Part shown: one piece after another, positions 12,030-63,733 of the stretch
Layout of the letters: each line of letters starts with the position of its first letter
Numbering within the stretch: position 1 is the first letter of the stretch
Assembly: GCA_039680605.1 (NCBI GenBank)
Contig: JBDKTA010000009.1
Location: 1 to 64,000 of the forward strand
Source of the DNA: Planctomycetaceae bacterium
GTDB taxonomy: Bacteria > Planctomycetota > Phycisphaerae > SM23-33
Length of the DNA: 64,000 nt
Direction: 5' to 3'
Position numbers and translations under genes: made by a program
The notes under the pieces: model-generated
Seen by the model: the letters and a program-made list of their open reading frames with translations, nothing else
Database searches by the model: none
What the model was told of the DNA's origin: nothing

Positions 12030-12290
12030 CACGAATGTCACGAATGACACGAATACAACGAGATAAAACCAGTTCTTACCCGGTCTCAGTCTGCAAGGCC
12101 CGAAGGGCCGACATATCCTCGCCGGGCCCGTGAGGGCCAGGAAAAGTCTTTTAAAATCGCTTAGCCCCGAAGGGGCGGCACTGCCGCAATTGCAGGTGCC
12201 GCCCCTTCGGGGCTCATCTTTTCACAAGACTCTTACCGGGGCCTAACGGCCCCGGCCAAGATATTCCGGCCCTTCGGGCCTGCCCAACCA
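12030..12290. repeat. Cluster of intergenic palindromes between ribE and pdxA
   Basis: It holds direct repeats of CACGAATG (about 12030-12055) and several GC-rich hairpins. The largest is a 19-bp perfect inverted repeat at 12163-12214 (arm AGCCCCGAAGGGGCGGCAC) with AGTCTT/AAGACT as an outer pair. Smaller GGCCCGAAGGGCC and CCGGGGCC...GGCCCCGG palindromes flank it. No gene or classical terminator was seen. Confidence 0.65.
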
Positions 12291-13022: not shown

Positions 13023-13110
13023 GGGTCAGTAAACTGACCCGGCCGGGTCACTTCAGTGACCTCGGAACTTTGCCGCAGGTTCAGGGACACGCACAACGGA
13101 GTTGTGCGTG
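13023..13110. repeat. Three consecutive perfect hairpins upstream of the YchF-like gene
   Basis: Hairpins are GGGTCAGT-AA-ACTGACCC (13023-13040), GGTCACT-TC-AGTGACC (13046-13061) and CACGCACAAC-GGA-GTTGTGCGTG (13088-13110). The last ends 10 nt before the Shine-Dalgarno GGAGA of the YchF-like gene. They may be repeat insertions or leader structures. Confidence 0.6.
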
Positions 13111-43732: not shown

Positions 43733-44833
43733 TTAGACGACCTCCAGGTGATCGCGATCCGGGAATTTTGGAAACGCCGCGGCCGGCAGCGTCTGGTACC
43801 AATACGCCGTCGAGCAGATGTCGTGCATTCCGGGATAGAACCGCCCCTCGCTGCGCCAGCCCAGCGACTGGATCGTGATGCGCAGGTCCTTCTCGAACCG
43901 CACCGGGTCCATCACGTGCCAGCGGTACATCGCGTGGCGATGCTGCGAAAGATACGTCCCGTTGGGCCGCAGGACCTGGTGCATTCCGCCATAGGGTCCG
44001 GTGTAGGTGACGTACTGGCCGTCGACGTCCCAGTTGTAGGCGCCCAGGAAATAGTCTTCGGTGCCCGTGCCGCAGATGGTCGGGAACTCGCCGTCGCCGT
44101 CGATGTAGAACTTGATCTCGCCCTCGCCCCACCAGTTGCTGGCGTTGATGCCCCAGCCCATCGACGTGCCGACATACTGCCCGCGGCCTTTGACGCCGTC
44201 GACGATCGTGTAGACCTCGCCGTACGGCAGCGGGTTGACGCGGCGGTACTGCGCGTGGAAGTACGCGCAGTCGTCAGGCACATCCGTCAGCGTGTAGTTG
44301 ATCTGGTAGTAGGTCGTGCGACCGTCGCTGGGGCTGATATTCTCCAGCGTCATGCGGCAGCGTTTGCGGAAGGGCATTTCCCAGAAGCAGTTCAGCGCCC
44401 GGTTGGGGTTGACGCACACCGGCAGCGAGTTGATGTGAACGTACGGGCCCTTGTGGCAGTAGTCGTCGGGGCGGAACCAGTGCATCCCGAAGAAGTCCGG
44501 CAGCGGGCACTCGACCGAGGGGGTGTCCTGGCCTTCCCAGTAGATCCGCAATATCAGGTCGCGTCCGACGTAGCCGGCAAGCCACATGCTCTGGATCGCG
44601 CCGCTGCCGGTGATGTCCGCCAGCGTGTAGGTGGTCTTGGGGGGGATCGTGTGGCACGGCGCGCACTTCCACCCCAGTCCCAGTGTCGACGAAGGGTGCC
44701 CCGGCGAAGGCTCGGCCATCGCCCCGCAGCCCTTCTCGCCGGTAAGATTCTCTGCCGAGATCGACCGGCTCTTGGCCGCACTCAGCCGTGAAAGATTGCC
44801 CAGGTTCATTCCCAATCCATTGAAACTCATCAT
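43733..44833 (-). CDS. GH172-family (DUF2961) glycoside hydrolase
   Basis: A 366-aa DUF2961 protein; this family includes GH172 alpha-D-fructofuranosidases and related enzymes acting on fructose- or arabinose-containing glycans. Diagnostic stretches are SMWLAGYVGRDLILRIYW, WWGEGEIKFYIDGDGEFPT and CGTGTEDYFLGAYNW, which carry conserved acidic residues. No signal peptide is evident. ATG at 44833 or 44830, both right after GGAGAAG; a longer open frame to 45691 runs through the hairpin cluster and is not real. It lies inside a run of MoxR/vWA-type genes and is the only carbohydrate enzyme there. Confidence 0.88.
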   Translation of the reverse strand: MMSFNGLGMNLGNLSRLSAAKSRSISAENLTGEKGCGAMAEPSPGHPSSTLGLGWKCAPCHTIPPKTTYTLADITGSGAIQSMWLAGYVGRDLILRIYWEGQDTPSVECPLPDFFGMHWFRPDDYCHKGPYVHINSLPVCVNPNRALNCFWEMPFRKRCRMTLENISPSDGRTTYYQINYTLTDVPDDCAYFHAQYRRVNPLPYGEVYTIVDGVKGRGQYVGTSMGWGINASNWWGEGEIKFYIDGDGEFPTICGTGTEDYFLGAYNWDVDGQYVTYTGPYGGMHQVLRPNGTYLSQHRHAMYRWHVMDPVRFEKDLRITIQSLGWRSEGRFYPGMHDICSTAYWYQTLPAAAFPKFPDRDHLEVV

Positions 44834-44841
44834 CTTCTCCC

Positions 44842-45060
44842 GTAGCACGGGCGTCTCGCCCGTGAGTCTCACGGGCATCCTGCCCGTGCTCTTATCTGTG
44901 TGGCATGGGCGTCTCGCCCATGTTCTTTCTTCGTGGCATGGGCGTCTCGCCCATGCTCTTGCTCTTCTCTTCTTCCTCCGGCGGGCGAGACGCCCGCCGG
45001 ATGCATGGGCGAGACGCCCATGCCACACAACCATGCACGGGCAAGATGCCCATGCTACTA
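44842..45060. repeat. Cluster of seven GGGCGTCTCGCCC-type hairpins
   Basis: Seven consecutive palindromes share cores such as CACGGGCG-TCT-CGCCCGTG, CATGGGCG-TCT-CGCCCATG and GCGGGCG-AGA-CGCCCGC. Left-hand units are in one orientation and right-hand units in the other. On the transcribed (minus) strand the cluster begins at the TAG stop of the vWA gene (TAGTAGCATGGGC) and ends as GTGCTAC directly before the Shine-Dalgarno GGGAGAAG of the GH172 gene. It fills the whole intergenic gap. Confidence 0.9.
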
Positions 45061-47625: not shown

Positions 47626-49940
47626 GGCTGTCGCTCCGCGGCGGCCTTGCGGCCGGCGTAATGTCCGAACTTCTGCCCCAGGAACGTCTCCCCCGCCAGC
47701 AGCACCAGCGCCGCCAAGGCCGCCAGAAGCCAGTATTCCTTTTTGGCCGCGGCGGCGGCGAGCGGCTCATTGCCGCCGGCGGCCTTGGCGGCGTAGGCGA
47801 AATCGTCGCTGCCCAAGGCGGCCTCGAGGGCGGTACGCCCGCCACAGGCGAGGTCGCCTTCGGCGGGGTCGATATTGCGGGCGAAGAGCACTTTCTTTAT
47901 CGAGCGGTCCGGCGAGACCAGTTCGAGCCAGTAGATCCCCGCGCCGTCTGTTGCCGCGTACGAAAGATGTCCTGCCGCGGCGCCCTGCCGCCGGGCTACC
48001 AGCGTGACCAGGTCGTCCGCGGGGAACCGCGGCGTCTTGAGCGTGGCCTGGGCGTCGAGCAGGTCAGCGGCGAGGGTGTAGTCGATCGGGTGGCCGACGC
48101 GGGCCGTCAGGTTCTGCGACGCCGACCGGGCGACGAACTTGACCGTCTCATGGGCGATGACGGCGTAGGTGCCGACTTCGTCGCTGGGCCAGTCGTTCCA
48201 ACGCTTGCTGGCGGTCGTGCAGAACAGCACCACCTCGCCCAGCCCGAAGCGGCGCGTGATGACGGCAGGCGAGTTTTGCGGGTCCGCGAACGCCGCCAGC
48301 ACCTGGGGGGCCTTGATGTCCGGCGGCAGAACCACGCCGTGGGGTTCCTCGGCGGGGGTGAAGGCGAAGAACCGAACCAGCGACGTCACGTCGCTGCCTT
48401 CGGCCGCGAACCGCGTGAAGGCCTGCATGATGTTGTGATTGGCGATGCTCGACGGCGCCAACCGCACGTACGTGTCGCTCTGGTCCGGCCGACCCTTGTG
48501 CGGACCCACGCGGTACGGCAGCAGCCCGACGCCGCCGGCGTAGAACGGGCCGTTATAGAAATCGAGATTGATGTGGCCGCCGGTGAAGATGATCAGCCCG
48601 CCGCCGCCTCTGACGTACTCCTCCAGCGCCTTGAGCTGAGGATACACCACGGCCGGTCGCGTGGCCGGGCCGGTCTCGACCGAAGAGGGAAAGTCGGCCA
48701 CGTCCAGCAGCGCCACCGCGTCGTAGTCGGCGAAGTTGGCCCCGCCCAGGGTGTCCGACGAGATCACCTCGGCGCGAACGCCGAAGGCGCCGTCGCCCCG
48801 CGGGTCGAGCACTTTGCTCAGGAAGAACGACTCGCTCTCGGTGCGGTCGGTCGGGTCGGTGTTGCCGTCGACGATCAGCACCCGCGTGACCTTGCGGATG
48901 TCCAGCGCCAGGTGGGCGCGGTTGTCGGCCTGCAGATCATCGCCGGCGGCCTCGACGGTCACCACCGCCGAGCCGGGGCTGCGGCTGGCGGCCTCGAAGA
49001 TCACGCGCGTGCTCTGGCCGCTCTCGAGCGAGGCGATCACCTGCACCGGCAGCACGACGGTCCGGTCGCCTTGGCCCGGCAGCACCATTCGCGGGGTCAG
49101 GGCGACGTTCTCGATGTTGGTCGTGCCGTTGTTCCGCACGGTGACGGCCACATTGAACGGCACGTTCGCTACCGCGAAACGGTCCAGCAGCTCGATCGAT
49201 TCGATAGTGAGATTCTTGCGCGATTCCTGCCCATAGTCGAGCACCTCGACGTTGACGCCGCTCTTTCGCAGGGCGGCGAAAGCTTTCTGCAGCGGGCTCT
49301 GCGCCGCGGGCGCCGTCAGATCGATCTTGCGGCAGTCCGTCAGCACCACCACCTGCCGCGCGCCTGCCTCATTGGCCAGCAGCGCGCCGGCCCGCCCCAG
49401 GGCGGTCGCCAGGGCCAGCCGCCCGTCGGAGGCGTCGAGACTCTCCAGCCGCGCCGCCAGCGAGACCGGTTCGGCCACGTAGTTCAGATCGAACAGCGGG
49501 GCTTGCCCGTCGTCGCCGGCGCCCATCAGCACCGCGACCTTCTCCGAGCGCGAGGTTCGCCGGATGCGCTCGGCCAGGTCGTGGCGGGCGTTCTCAAAGA
49601 GCGACAGGGCGGCCGATTTCTGCAGCATCGAGTAGCTGTTGTCGAGGATGTACACTGTCGAGCGAGGCCCGGACATGCCCGGCAGAACCGACGTGGCGGC
49701 GCAGCCGGTGAACCGAGCGATCGCCAGCGCCAGCAGCAGCACCGCCAGGCACCGCATCGCCAGCAGGATCATCTCCTCGATCCGAAGCCGCCGCCGATTG
49801 CGCCGCAGCGAGTCCAGCAGAAACTGCATCGCCGCCCAGTGGCGCAGCCGGAACCGCCTGCGGTTGAGCAGGTGAATGATGATCGGCGCCGAAACGCACG
49901 CCGCGCCGATCCAGAAGATTATCGGATGAACAAACGGCAA
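47622..49940 (-). CDS. BatA-like vWA membrane protein
   Basis: A 772-aa protein. The N-terminus (FVHPIIFWIGAACVSAPIII, HLLNRRRFRLRHWAAMQFL) is the BatA/aerotolerance N-terminal domain with a TM helix, followed by a second helix at 58-77 and a vWA domain starting STVYILDNSYSML with MIDAS residues DNSYS (100-104). Later come beta-sandwich segments and a glutamine-amidotransferase-like region (GGGLIIFTGGHINL), then a C-terminal helix (YWLLAALAALVLLAGETFLG). It opens with TTG; the GGAAA just upstream lies next to the repeat at 49946-49977. Coupled to the downstream vWA gene. Confidence 0.86.
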   Translation of the reverse strand: MPFVHPIIFWIGAACVSAPIIIHLLNRRRFRLRHWAAMQFLLDSLRRNRRRLRIEEMILLAMRCLAVLLLALAIARFTGCAATSVLPGMSGPRSTVYILDNSYSMLQKSAALSLFENARHDLAERIRRTSRSEKVAVLMGAGDDGQAPLFDLNYVAEPVSLAARLESLDASDGRLALATALGRAGALLANEAGARQVVVLTDCRKIDLTAPAAQSPLQKAFAALRKSGVNVEVLDYGQESRKNLTIESIELLDRFAVANVPFNVAVTVRNNGTTNIENVALTPRMVLPGQGDRTVVLPVQVIASLESGQSTRVIFEAASRSPGSAVVTVEAAGDDLQADNRAHLALDIRKVTRVLIVDGNTDPTDRTESESFFLSKVLDPRGDGAFGVRAEVISSDTLGGANFADYDAVALLDVADFPSSVETGPATRPAVVYPQLKALEEYVRGGGGLIIFTGGHINLDFYNGPFYAGGVGLLPYRVGPHKGRPDQSDTYVRLAPSSIANHNIMQAFTRFAAEGSDVTSLVRFFAFTPAEEPHGVVLPPDIKAPQVLAAFADPQNSPAVITRRFGLGEVVLFCTTASKRWNDWPSDEVGTYAVIAHETVKFVARSASQNLTARVGHPIDYTLAADLLDAQATLKTPRFPADDLVTLVARRQGAAAGHLSYAATDGAGIYWLELVSPDRSIKKVLFARNIDPAEGDLACGGRTALEAALGSDDFAYAAKAAGGNEPLAAAAAKKEYWLLAALAALVLLAGETFLGQKFGHYAGRKAAAERQP

Positions 49941-49945
49941 GTCAG

Positions 49946-49977
49946 ATTTCCAATTTCCAATTTACAATTTCCAATTT
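49946..49977. repeat. Solo arm of the 119-bp hairpin element
   Basis: A 32-bp stretch of ATTTCCAATTTCCAATTTAC-type sequence matches the left arm of the tandem units at 29407-29756 with two mismatches. It lies 5 bp upstream of the TTG start of the BatA-like gene, whose leader GGAAAT comes from the repeat. Confidence 0.75.
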
Positions 49978-49978
49978 C

Positions 49979-50059
49979 ATGGATGGCTGGATGGTTGGAT
50001 GAATGGATGATTGGGGGAACATCTGCCCGCATCCATCCACCCATCCATTCATCCATCCG
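49979..50059. repeat. Degenerate GGAT array folding into a hairpin
   Basis: Degenerate ATGG/GGAT units at 49979-50014 face inverted CATCC units at 50031-50059. Together with the solo arm at 49946 they fill the gap between the DUF58 stop (50064) and the BatA-like start. Confidence 0.8.
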
Positions 50060-50063
50060 TTCT

Positions 50064-51005
50064 TCATCTTTTCGCCCCCGCTTTGCGTGTCGCGGCGGTT
50101 CGGGCGGCCAGGAAGGCCAGTAGCGCGGCGTCCATGTGGTCTGCCGTCGAGATCCGCTTGTAGTCGATGCGCCGGGCGATGCAGCGGCGCTTCACCTGGA
50201 GGCAGAACTCCTCGACGGCTTTGAGATACCCCTCGCGCAGGGCCCGCGGTTCCACGAGCAGATCGCCCATGGCCTCGAGGCCGCGGAACATCGTGTTGCC
50301 CTGGAAGGGAAAATCCAGTTCGTCCTGGTCCATAATGTGCAGCACGAGCACTTCATGATCGTAATGGCGAAAATGCTCCAGGCCGCGGACCACGCCCTCG
50401 ATGTCGCAGAACAGGTCGCTGACCAGGCACACCAGCCCGCGCCGCGGGATCTTCTCGGCCAGCGAATGGCAGATATCTTCGATGGACGTCTTGGCCTTGG
50501 GCTTGGTGATGTCCATCGCGTGGACGATGCTCTTGATCTGGTTGACGCTGCCCGAGGCCGGCAGGTACTGGCGCAGGTCCTCGTCGAAGATCGCCAGGCC
50601 CGTCGAGTCCTGCTGCTGCAGCAGCAGAAACGCCAGCGACGCCGCCACGGCCGCGGCGTACTGATACTTGGTCATGCCGCCGTCGCCGTTTTCGCTGCCA
50701 TAGTGCATCGACTCGCTGGCATCGAGCACGAAGGTGGCCTTGAGGTTGGTCTCTTCCTCGTACTGCTTGATGTAGTAGCGGTCGGTCTTGGCCTGGACTT
50801 TCCAGTCGATGTGCTTGGTATCGTCGCCAGGCACGTACTGGCGGTGCGAGGCGAACTCGACGCTGTAGCCATGGAACGGGCTGCGGTGCAGGCCGCTGAT
50901 GAACCCCTCGACCACCAGGCGCGCCTGAAGATCCAGCCGCGTGATCTTCGAAAGCACCTTCGGGTCAAGGTACCGCTTGAGTTCCTGGCTGTCCTGGAAG
51001 ACCAC
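50064..51005 (-). CDS. DUF58 protein
   Basis: A 313-aa cytoplasmic DUF58 protein, the usual partner of MoxR ATPases. It has the DUF58 signature SHRQYVPGDDTKHIDWKV (residues 53-70) and a vWA-like core with TFVLDASESMHYG, in which DASES (95-99) matches MIDAS. C-terminal helices end in a basic tail. It opens with GTG directly after the MoxR stop (TAAGTG), with AGGAG as Shine-Dalgarno inside the moxR end, so translation is coupled. Confidence 0.93.
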   Translation of the reverse strand: MVFQDSQELKRYLDPKVLSKITRLDLQARLVVEGFISGLHRSPFHGYSVEFASHRQYVPGDDTKHIDWKVQAKTDRYYIKQYEEETNLKATFVLDASESMHYGSENGDGGMTKYQYAAAVAASLAFLLLQQQDSTGLAIFDEDLRQYLPASGSVNQIKSIVHAMDITKPKAKTSIEDICHSLAEKIPRRGLVCLVSDLFCDIEGVVRGLEHFRHYDHEVLVLHIMDQDELDFPFQGNTMFRGLEAMGDLLVEPRALREGYLKAVEEFCLQVKRRCIARRIDYKRISTADHMDAALLAFLAARTAATRKAGAKR

Positions 51006-52082
51006 TTACAGCTCCTTGACCGCTCCGGCCGTGGCGGGGTTGCTGGCGATGGACGAATCCTGCGCGGGAATGATCCGGAGCAGCTCGTCCACGATGCGGT
51101 CGGTGTCATAGCCTTCGGCGTCGGCGTTGAAGTTCGTCACGATGCGGTGGCGCAGGACGGGCTTGGCGACGGCCTGGATGTCTTCCGTCGAAACGTGGTA
51201 TCGCCCGTTAAGCACCGCGCGCACCTTGGCGCCGAGGATGAGGTACTGGCACGCGCGCGGGCCGGCGCCCCAGGTAACGTAATCTTTGACGATCTTGGGC
51301 ACGTCGGCTTCGTGTACGCGCGTGGCGCGCACGAGCTTCATGGCGTAGTGGATCACGTGATCGGCCGCCGGCACGCGGCGGATGATCTCCTGCAGTTCGA
51401 GGATCTGCCGCCCGTCGAGCATCTTCTGCAGGGCGATATCGGCCACCGCCGTCGTCAAGCGCACGACGGCGAACTCTTCGTCCCACGAAGGATACTTGAC
51501 GAAGATCTTGAACATGAAGCGGTCCTGCTGCGCCTCGGGCAGCGGGTACGTGCCTTCCTGCTCGATGGGGTTCTGCGTGGCCAGCACGAAGAACGGGTCG
51601 AGCATGGGCATGCGCTGGCCGCCGACGCTGACCTGGCGTTCCTGCATGGCCTCGAGCAGGGCCGCCTGCGTCTTGGGCGGCGTGCGGTTAATCTCGTCAG
51701 CGAGCACAATGTTGGTGAAAATGGGGCCTTTGAGGAACTTCATCTCGCGCTGCCCGGTGGAGCGGTTCTCCTGGATGACCTCCGTGCCGGTGATGTCGGA
51801 GGGCATCAGGTCGGGCGTGAACTGGATGCGGGCGAAGTCCAGGTCGAGGCACTTGGCCAGCGACGAGACCATCAGCGTCTTGGCCAGGCCCGGAACGCCT
51901 TCGAGGATCGCATGCCCGCGGGCGAAGATGCAGATCAGCAGCTCTTCGAGCACCTGTTCCTGCCCGACGATGGCCTTGGACATTTCCTTGCGGATGATCT
52001 TGTAGGCGTCGGTCAGCTTCGCGGCCGCCGCCACGTCGTTGTTGTTCAAGGCCTCTGCTTGCGGTGTTACGTCTTGGGACAC
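51006..52082 (-). CDS. MoxR-family AAA+ ATPase
   Basis: A 358-aa AAA+ ATPase with chaperone-like activity in maturation of vWA-linked complexes. Walker A is GVPGLAKT (62-69); Walker B is VLADEINR (Asp129, Glu130); sensor 1 lies in [20 protein letters not shown]; sensor 2 and the C-terminal lid ([16 protein letters not shown]) follow. I set the start at GTG 52082, preceded by GGAGA; the open frame to 52184 translates the hairpin repeat ([10 protein letters not shown]) and is not part of the protein. The DUF58 gene starts 0 bp downstream. Confidence 0.94.
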
Positions 52083-52095
52083 GAATGTCTCCTTC

Positions 52096-52237
52096 GTAGC
52101 ACGGGCGTCTCGCCCGTGATTCTCACGGCCGTCACGGCCGTGTTCTTCGTTTTGTGGCATGGGCGTCTCGCCCATGCCACACAACCTGCACGGGCGAGAC
52201 GCCCGTGCTACTCATGGGCAAGATGCCCATGCTACTA
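52096..52237. repeat. Cluster of five GGGCGTCTCGCCC-type hairpins
   Basis: Five palindromes of the family also found at 44842-45060, including GTAGCACGGGCGTCTCGCCC and GTGGCATGGGCG...CATGCCAC. On the minus strand the cluster begins at the TAG stop of the prenyltransferase-like gene (TAGTAGCATGGGC, as at 45060) and ends at GTGCTAC 14 nt before the GTG start of moxR. It again fills the whole gap from stop to Shine-Dalgarno. Confidence 0.9.
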
Positions 52238-63645: not shown

Positions 63646-63733
63646 TGGAGTGCGGCAGCAGCAGCAGCAGCCGCTTTGGGAGCTGTTGGAATAGAACAAC
63701 TTTTAAAGCGGCAGCTAAGGCTGCCGCACTCCA
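63646..63733. repeat. 88-bp nested palindrome upstream of birA
   Basis: Outer arms TGGAGTGCGGCAGC (63646-63659) and GCTGCCGCACTCCA (63720-63733) are perfect. GCCGCTTT and AAAGCGGC, then GTTG and CAAC, nest inside. It is another dispersed-palindrome type, of unknown copy number here; no second copy was seen in the window. Confidence 0.7.

Follow-up and report, generated by a model that had tools for sequence, protein, structure and literature searches.

GTAG-REPs have been described in Planctomycetes and Verrucomicrobia, where they lie downstream of genes, lend the TAG of their feet to these genes as stop codons and also occur inside genes (Di Nocera 2013, PMC3733652). In REPtrons from E. coli, Stenotrophomonas and Marinomonas, GTAG acts as a guide, and the Marinomonas Mb enzyme also cuts a GTGG substrate (PMC8266576, PMC2817692). 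RAYTs have been presented as REPIN-replicating genes that are present once per genome and passed on vertically, the persistence of such sequence populations being an open question (PMC8049555).

Here, we analyzed two hairpin-filled gaps in a run of MoxR- and vWA-type genes within a 64,000-nucleotide stretch of a Planctomycetota genome (the window). These clusters, whose REP/REPIN identity we hold with high confidence, belong to the already known GTAG-REP/BIME type (PMC3733652). The surprise is that the presumed mover enzyme is encoded in one unbroken frame in host genes, including the only valyl-tRNA synthetase gene found in many relatives.

Anatomy of the window clusters

As originally noted, the gaps preceding GH172 and moxR are filled with consecutive palindromes, seven hairpin units on the GH172 side and five on the moxR side (Table 1). 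Read on the minus strand, both are arrays of GTRG-footed palindromes (stem of 8-9 bp, loop of 3 nt) arranged head-to-head with GTAG/CTAC outermost, the leading units carrying GTAG or GTGG immediately 5' of the stem and the trailing units its complement. The two clusters also share their boundaries, as had been claimed: both open on TAGTAGCATGGGC, which is the upstream TAG stop overlapping the GTAG foot by one G, and both close on GTGCTAC. On this strand, the TAG stop upstream of cluster 1 occupies 45060-45058 and the first GTAG foot runs from 45058, with the G of the stop in common, while the last CTAC extends to 44842 and is followed by GGGAGAAG and the GH172 ATG at 44833. In cluster 2, the upstream stop ends at 52235, where GTAG begins, and CTAC finishes at 52096, followed by GAAGGAGACATTC and the moxR GTG at 52082. 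In-silico removal of the segment from GTAG to CTAC restores TAG-GGGAGAAG-ATG in the GH172 gap and TAG-AAGGAGACATTC-GTG in the moxR gap. Automatic ORF calls place the start of moxR and that of GH172 too far upstream, within the clusters, owing to the open reading frames contained in the repeats. The other genes of the run, described as overlapping or nearly touching, do not do so everywhere, the gap at 49829-50064 measuring ~230 nt. No Rfam family matches the window clusters; elsewhere in the window, the Acido-Lenti-1 RNA (Rfam) has two opposed matches ~95 nt apart (12236-12281, +; 12096-12141, -).

Table 1. Coordinates of the repeat clusters, their units and the embedded transposases. Plain position ranges refer to the window.
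Feature	Position	Strand
REP cluster 1, 7 head-to-head units with outermost GTAG feet, between GH172 and stop of upstream membrane/vWA-type gene	44842..45058	-
Cluster 1 unit 1: GTAG-CATGGGC-ATCTT-GCCCGTGC; G is last base of upstream TAG stop	45035..45058	-
Cluster 1 unit 2: GTGG-CATGGGC-GTCTC-GCCCATGC	45003..45026	-
Cluster 1 unit 3: TCCGGCGGGCGTCTCGCCCGCCGGA palindrome without GTRG foot	44977..45001	-
Cluster 1 unit 4: inverted, with CCAC end on minus strand	44933..44956	+
Cluster 1 unit 5: inverted, with CCAC end on minus strand	44900..44922	+
Cluster 1 unit 6: opposite orientation, CACGGGCATCCTGCCCGTG on plus strand	44870..44888	+
Cluster 1 unit 7: opposite orientation; GTAG on plus strand is closing CTAC on minus strand	44842..44865	+
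GGGAGAAG, putative Shine-Dalgarno of GH172 (ATG 44833)	44834..44841	-
REP cluster 2, 5 units, between stop of upstream gene and moxR	52096..52235	-
Cluster 2 unit 1: GTAG-CATGGGC-ATCTT-GCCCATGA; G in common with TAG stop	52212..52235	-
Cluster 2 unit 2: GTAG-CACGGGC-GTCTC-GCCCGTGC	52188..52211	-
Cluster 2 unit 3: 13-bp stem TGTGGCATGGGC..GCCCATGCCACA	52153..52181	+
Cluster 2 unit 4: CACGGCCGTCACGGCCGTG	52124..52142	.
Cluster 2 unit 5: closing CTAC on minus strand	52096..52119	+
GAAGGAGACATTC, including moxR Shine-Dalgarno (GTG 52082)	52083..52095	-
RAYTs with flanking REPs in frame in etfB/valS/leuS/alaS/sua5/metH/dinG-like/pglX/nadE/fabZ	L025/L211 (source genome C4:19310-19936), L212-L220, L241-L260, L261-L340

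A high-copy repeat family with a cognate RAYT

Exact copies of the core GGGCGWSWCGCCC number 307 in the genome (5.23 Mb), whereas its reversed control has 1, and 191 units of the GTAG type were counted. Units and placement were detailed on 2.42 Mb of this genome, taken as stretches, in which 342 units form 127 clusters. An unpaired GTRG stands at the 5' foot, as GTAG or GTGG in 239 of the 342 units (GTGG 122, GTAG 117, GTGT 31), and neighbours of opposite orientation are arranged head-to-head (+-) in 39 cases versus tail-to-tail (-+) in 1. Across 59 other searched genomes, counts range from 0 to 352, with a patchy spread. The genome sample also holds a second, mostly intergenic hairpin family of the CACGCACAACGGAGTTGTGCGTG type (window 13088-13110 and about 29 places), as well as other abundant hairpin families (AGGCTGGAAAGCC, GCCTCGCAGAGGC and CAGCCTTAGCTGC/CAGCTAAGGCTGC), with one copy at window 63708-63727.

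Among the 15 Y1-transposase matches of the source genome, one is bordered on both sides by these same hairpins, head-to-head, and carries the motifs MPNHVH and WQSEYYDH. This RAYT matches NCBIfam REP_Tyr_transpos (E 3e-21) and reaches the Pfam Y1_Tnp cut-off, scoring 75.8 bits with NF047646 for an NCBIfam cut-off of 80 bits, which the L312 copy passes (80.5 bits); the best solved relative of the family is TnpArep (4er8). The repeats thus combine the characters of GTAG-REPs/BIMEs: high copy number, mostly intergenic location, GTRG foot, opposed pairing and a cognate RAYT between the same repeats.

Repeats and enzyme are also associated across genomes, with a median of 88.5 GTRG-CAY hairpins where a close RAYT relative is present versus 0 where it is not (p 9e-6), and the loop type (RTCYY or TTCCA) of the hairpins adjacent to the RAYT predicts which type is abundant in the genome (p 5e-5 and 5e-4). 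Some hairpin-rich genomes have no close RAYT (G035, 162; G055, 69; G023, 54), which was possibly lost or overlooked in fragmented assemblies, and one genome (G030) has a RAYT and 0 GTRG-CAY units.

Proposed origin of the clusters

Taken as a whole, the clusters are very probably best explained as REPINs/BIMEs of a GTRG-tagged REP family with a cognate RAYT, and by analogy with other REPtrons we infer that this enzyme drives their movement. As in those systems, the RAYT, a single-tyrosine HUH transposase, would bind foot and hairpin in single-stranded DNA, cut beside them and reinsert copies, the head-to-head pairs being presumably mobile as units. The placement at stop codons would probably have two sources, namely the survival of those insertions that spare the coding part, and a GTRG foot turned toward the stop, whose TAG would serve as the stop or follow the native one. 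In the transcript, the arrays would adopt very strong folds, which may stabilise or insulate the operon mRNA. Given this fold, the mRNA-spacer role originally suggested is possible, and we take any such effect as a by-product rather than the reason for placement. The transposase cassette itself (REPs-RAYT-REPs) lies in frame within host genes, etfB here, valS and others in relatives.

Placement relative to stop codons and starts

Using gene calls from a simple purpose-made caller, a cluster edge was found within -4..+7 nt of a stop codon for 36 of the 85 intergenic clusters, against a mean of 2.8 (maximum 10 in 2000 draws) for random placement in any gap and of 14.4 (maximum 26) for random placement inside the own gap of each cluster. 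Copies are hence not randomly placed, and the predicted element that inserts or expands between stop codon and Shine-Dalgarno stands as regards its insertion and its attachment to stops. It fails as an exact stop-to-Shine-Dalgarno rule: just 3 of 77 start-side edges lie within 7 nt, nothing like the stop-side effect and no sign of the special spacing expected on that side, and both sides are tight in just 7 of 57 co-directional gaps. The fit seen in the window arises because the original gaps were short, forcing both edges close.

In 16 instances, a gene terminates in frame on the TAG of a GTAG foot. Four of the corresponding proteins were profiled, of which three (LigA, an aminotransferase and NrnA) extend to the end of their family model and are therefore not truncations, the coverage of the fourth, PurF, stopping short of it.

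A variant of the REPIN explanation, compatible with it and in our view possible but somewhat doubtful, holds that the RAYT inserts beside a stop-like sequence (e.g. between TA and G of TAG), beyond a mere build-up of survivors. It draws on the stop-facing edges, near a stop in 36 of 59 cases when they bear a GTAG, GTGG or GTGT foot versus 0 of 29 without foot (Fisher p 3e-9), on three junctions restoring TA/G, both window clusters among them, and on the base preceding the outer GTAG, A or C in 78 of 80, a bias beyond what pure survivorship explains. Yet many clusters lie away from stops, stop codons make up just 212 of ~8,600 non-REP GTAG sites, and the orientation with the foot in front, which brings its own stop codon, could be favoured by selection. 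A simple model with host GTAG as target, examined by counting GTAG sites, fails on its own to account for junctions at -1, 0 and +1..+7 from the stop and was rejected. The window clusters point to gene edges at stop codons as the places where landing of these repeats is mainly tolerated and to which it is perhaps targeted.

Insertion history and alternative readings

The gene preceding moxR adjoins it in 13 relatives of the family, and the cluster is missing from all 13 gaps (0 of 13 hold a core), in line with the predicted insertion. In one of them (G005), the gap consists of TAG, 14 nt and GTG, with TAG directly joined to GGAAGGAGAACGAC-GTG. Because of this absence from 13 orthologous gaps, the moxR cluster appears to be a lineage-specific insertion. 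In relatives the upstream gene is not beside GH172, so that the GH172 gap has no syntenic counterpart. Sequence comparison supports inserted rather than ancestral clusters.

Very strong folding (z -17.8 and -15.6 against shuffles for the two window arrays) and closeness to stop codons would also suit a host regulatory RNA element, i.e. structured spacers selected between stop and Shine-Dalgarno and tuning operon expression. We regard this as unlikely, since units are also found within coding frames, between divergent genes and well away from starts, start sides have no close spacing, orthologous operon gaps are free of clusters, and GTRG feet with a flanking transposase would be superfluous for an RNA spacer. 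Intrinsic transcription terminators or attenuators, evoked by GC-rich hairpins shortly after stop codons, are highly improbable and were rejected, as no T run follows the hairpins in either window cluster, the clusters stand within a co-directional gene run ahead of moxR and GH172, and both orientations occur, also in coding sequence.

REPtrons in frame within host genes

The REPIN explanation leads to the genomic setting of the enzyme. The source-genome RAYT is in one unbroken frame with etfB, Pfam detecting ETF in two stretches and Y1_Tnp between them. When 397 genomes of the class, most of them metagenome assemblies, were surveyed, 31 of the best 32 RAYT matches (source genome included) proved to lie in open frames of at least 470 aa, 28 of these exceeding 800 aa. 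Across the RAYT set, the catalytic motif MPNHVH (or MPNHIH) is present in 32 of 32, and the W..E.YDH type in 30 of 32 by pattern. In 17 genomes from 15 genera and 4 families, the RAYT occupies one site of valS, between profile positions ~206 and 210, where the editing domain begins; among the matches listed for these genomes, no other one attains the valS cut-off, and a contig end interrupts the gene in a few of them. One single-contig genome (G080) has its RAYT in a YoaA/DinG-type helicase. With named genomes added, 94 distinct RAYTs comprise 58 embedded, 31 stand-alone and 5 running off the contig. Pfam/NCBIfam confirmed ValS, LeuS, AlaS, Sua5, MetH, the YoaA/DinG helicase, a PglX-like methylase, NadE and FabZ as hosts, with the RAYT match mid-protein, the methylase belonging to an isolate (Lamprocystis purpurea DSM 4197). 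A protein-splicing (Hint) domain was found in none of nine fused ORFs, and an intein reading was rejected on these grounds.

RAYT dN/dS is mostly 0.05-0.2, and the embedded enzyme, whose catalytic motifs are kept, is under purifying selection. In the RAYT tree, ValS-borne copies form nearly one clade, within which NadE and a second ValS site are nested. Agreement between the ValS and RAYT trees is partial (Mantel r 0.47, a value reached in 0 of 5000 permutations), and we therefore argue neither for strictly vertical descent nor for free movement. Low RAYT dS relative to the host gene (0.07 versus 0.56-0.77 on both sides in one MetH pair; 0.25 versus 2.1 or saturated in one ValS pair) suggests recent exchange at the same site. 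The REP-RAYT cassettes in metH of L319 and L321 are ~98% identical, the flanking metH mostly 80-95%, possibly by recent transfer at the same site.

Since no further copy of the host gene was found and the fused frame is intact and under purifying selection, we infer that the fused proteins are made and functional, and the REP-encoded linkers appear to stay in them. The AlphaFold model of a ValS-RAYT fusion was set aside for its low confidence (mean pLDDT 51.7). We lean slightly toward a REPtron that is maintained, and now and then spreads, inside essential genes as an in-frame cassette free of stops. Its sites would be fixed (in ValS where the editing domain begins; others in LeuS, AlaS, MetH, Sua5 and a DinG-like helicase) and its loss difficult, the host enzymes working with a built-in transposase, an intein-like persistence without protein splicing. 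If true, working synthetases would contain REP-encoded peptides along with an enzyme that cuts DNA.

Around 15 other source-genome genes bear in-frame REP peptides (e.g. HGRDAHAT), for example between two domains of an ABC transporter or within a protein kinase domain. Unit spacings are divisible by three in 30 of 33 intragenic and 97 of 119 intergenic cases. REPs, single or in tandem, are read in frame in ordinary genes of the source genome, for example at C22:29968-31911, C6:41471-42955 and C25:127951-130608, and a peptidase U32-like gene contains six tandem 33-nt REP copies.

Comparison with known systems

In the open-licence papers searched, no description of an in-frame RAYT or REPtron inside essential genes was found, and priority is thus not established. 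The GTAG-20 repeats of O. terrae and the GTAG-REPs of R. baltica (PMC3733652), likened here by description and not by consensus, share with our repeats the GTRG foot (mostly GTGG in GTAG-20), the short stem, head-to-head dimers, the position downstream of genes, the foot TAG used as stop and intragenic copies; the same paper mentions no clade of RAYT and REPs in frame inside genes such as the one found here. The E. coli, Stenotrophomonas and Marinomonas REPtrons (PMC8266576, PMC2817692) likewise have a HUH transposase with a REP and an inverted REP on either side, but their RAYTs are stand-alone genes, whereas those of the clade reported here mostly lie within the open frames of other genes.

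Outside the REP world, Rickettsia palindromic elements (RPE) are also palindromes translated in frame within proteins, but a host-gene-internal transposase gene was not reported for RPE in the literature surveyed. Inteins and homing elements occupy fixed sites in essential genes as in-frame cassettes that carry a mobility enzyme. The REP-RAYT cassettes resemble them in these fixed sites and in signs of local exchange; they differ in that the nine fused proteins have no splicing domain and appear to retain their linkers. Transposases locked in frame in the sole copy of an essential gene would offer a concrete and testable answer to the question of REPIN persistence.
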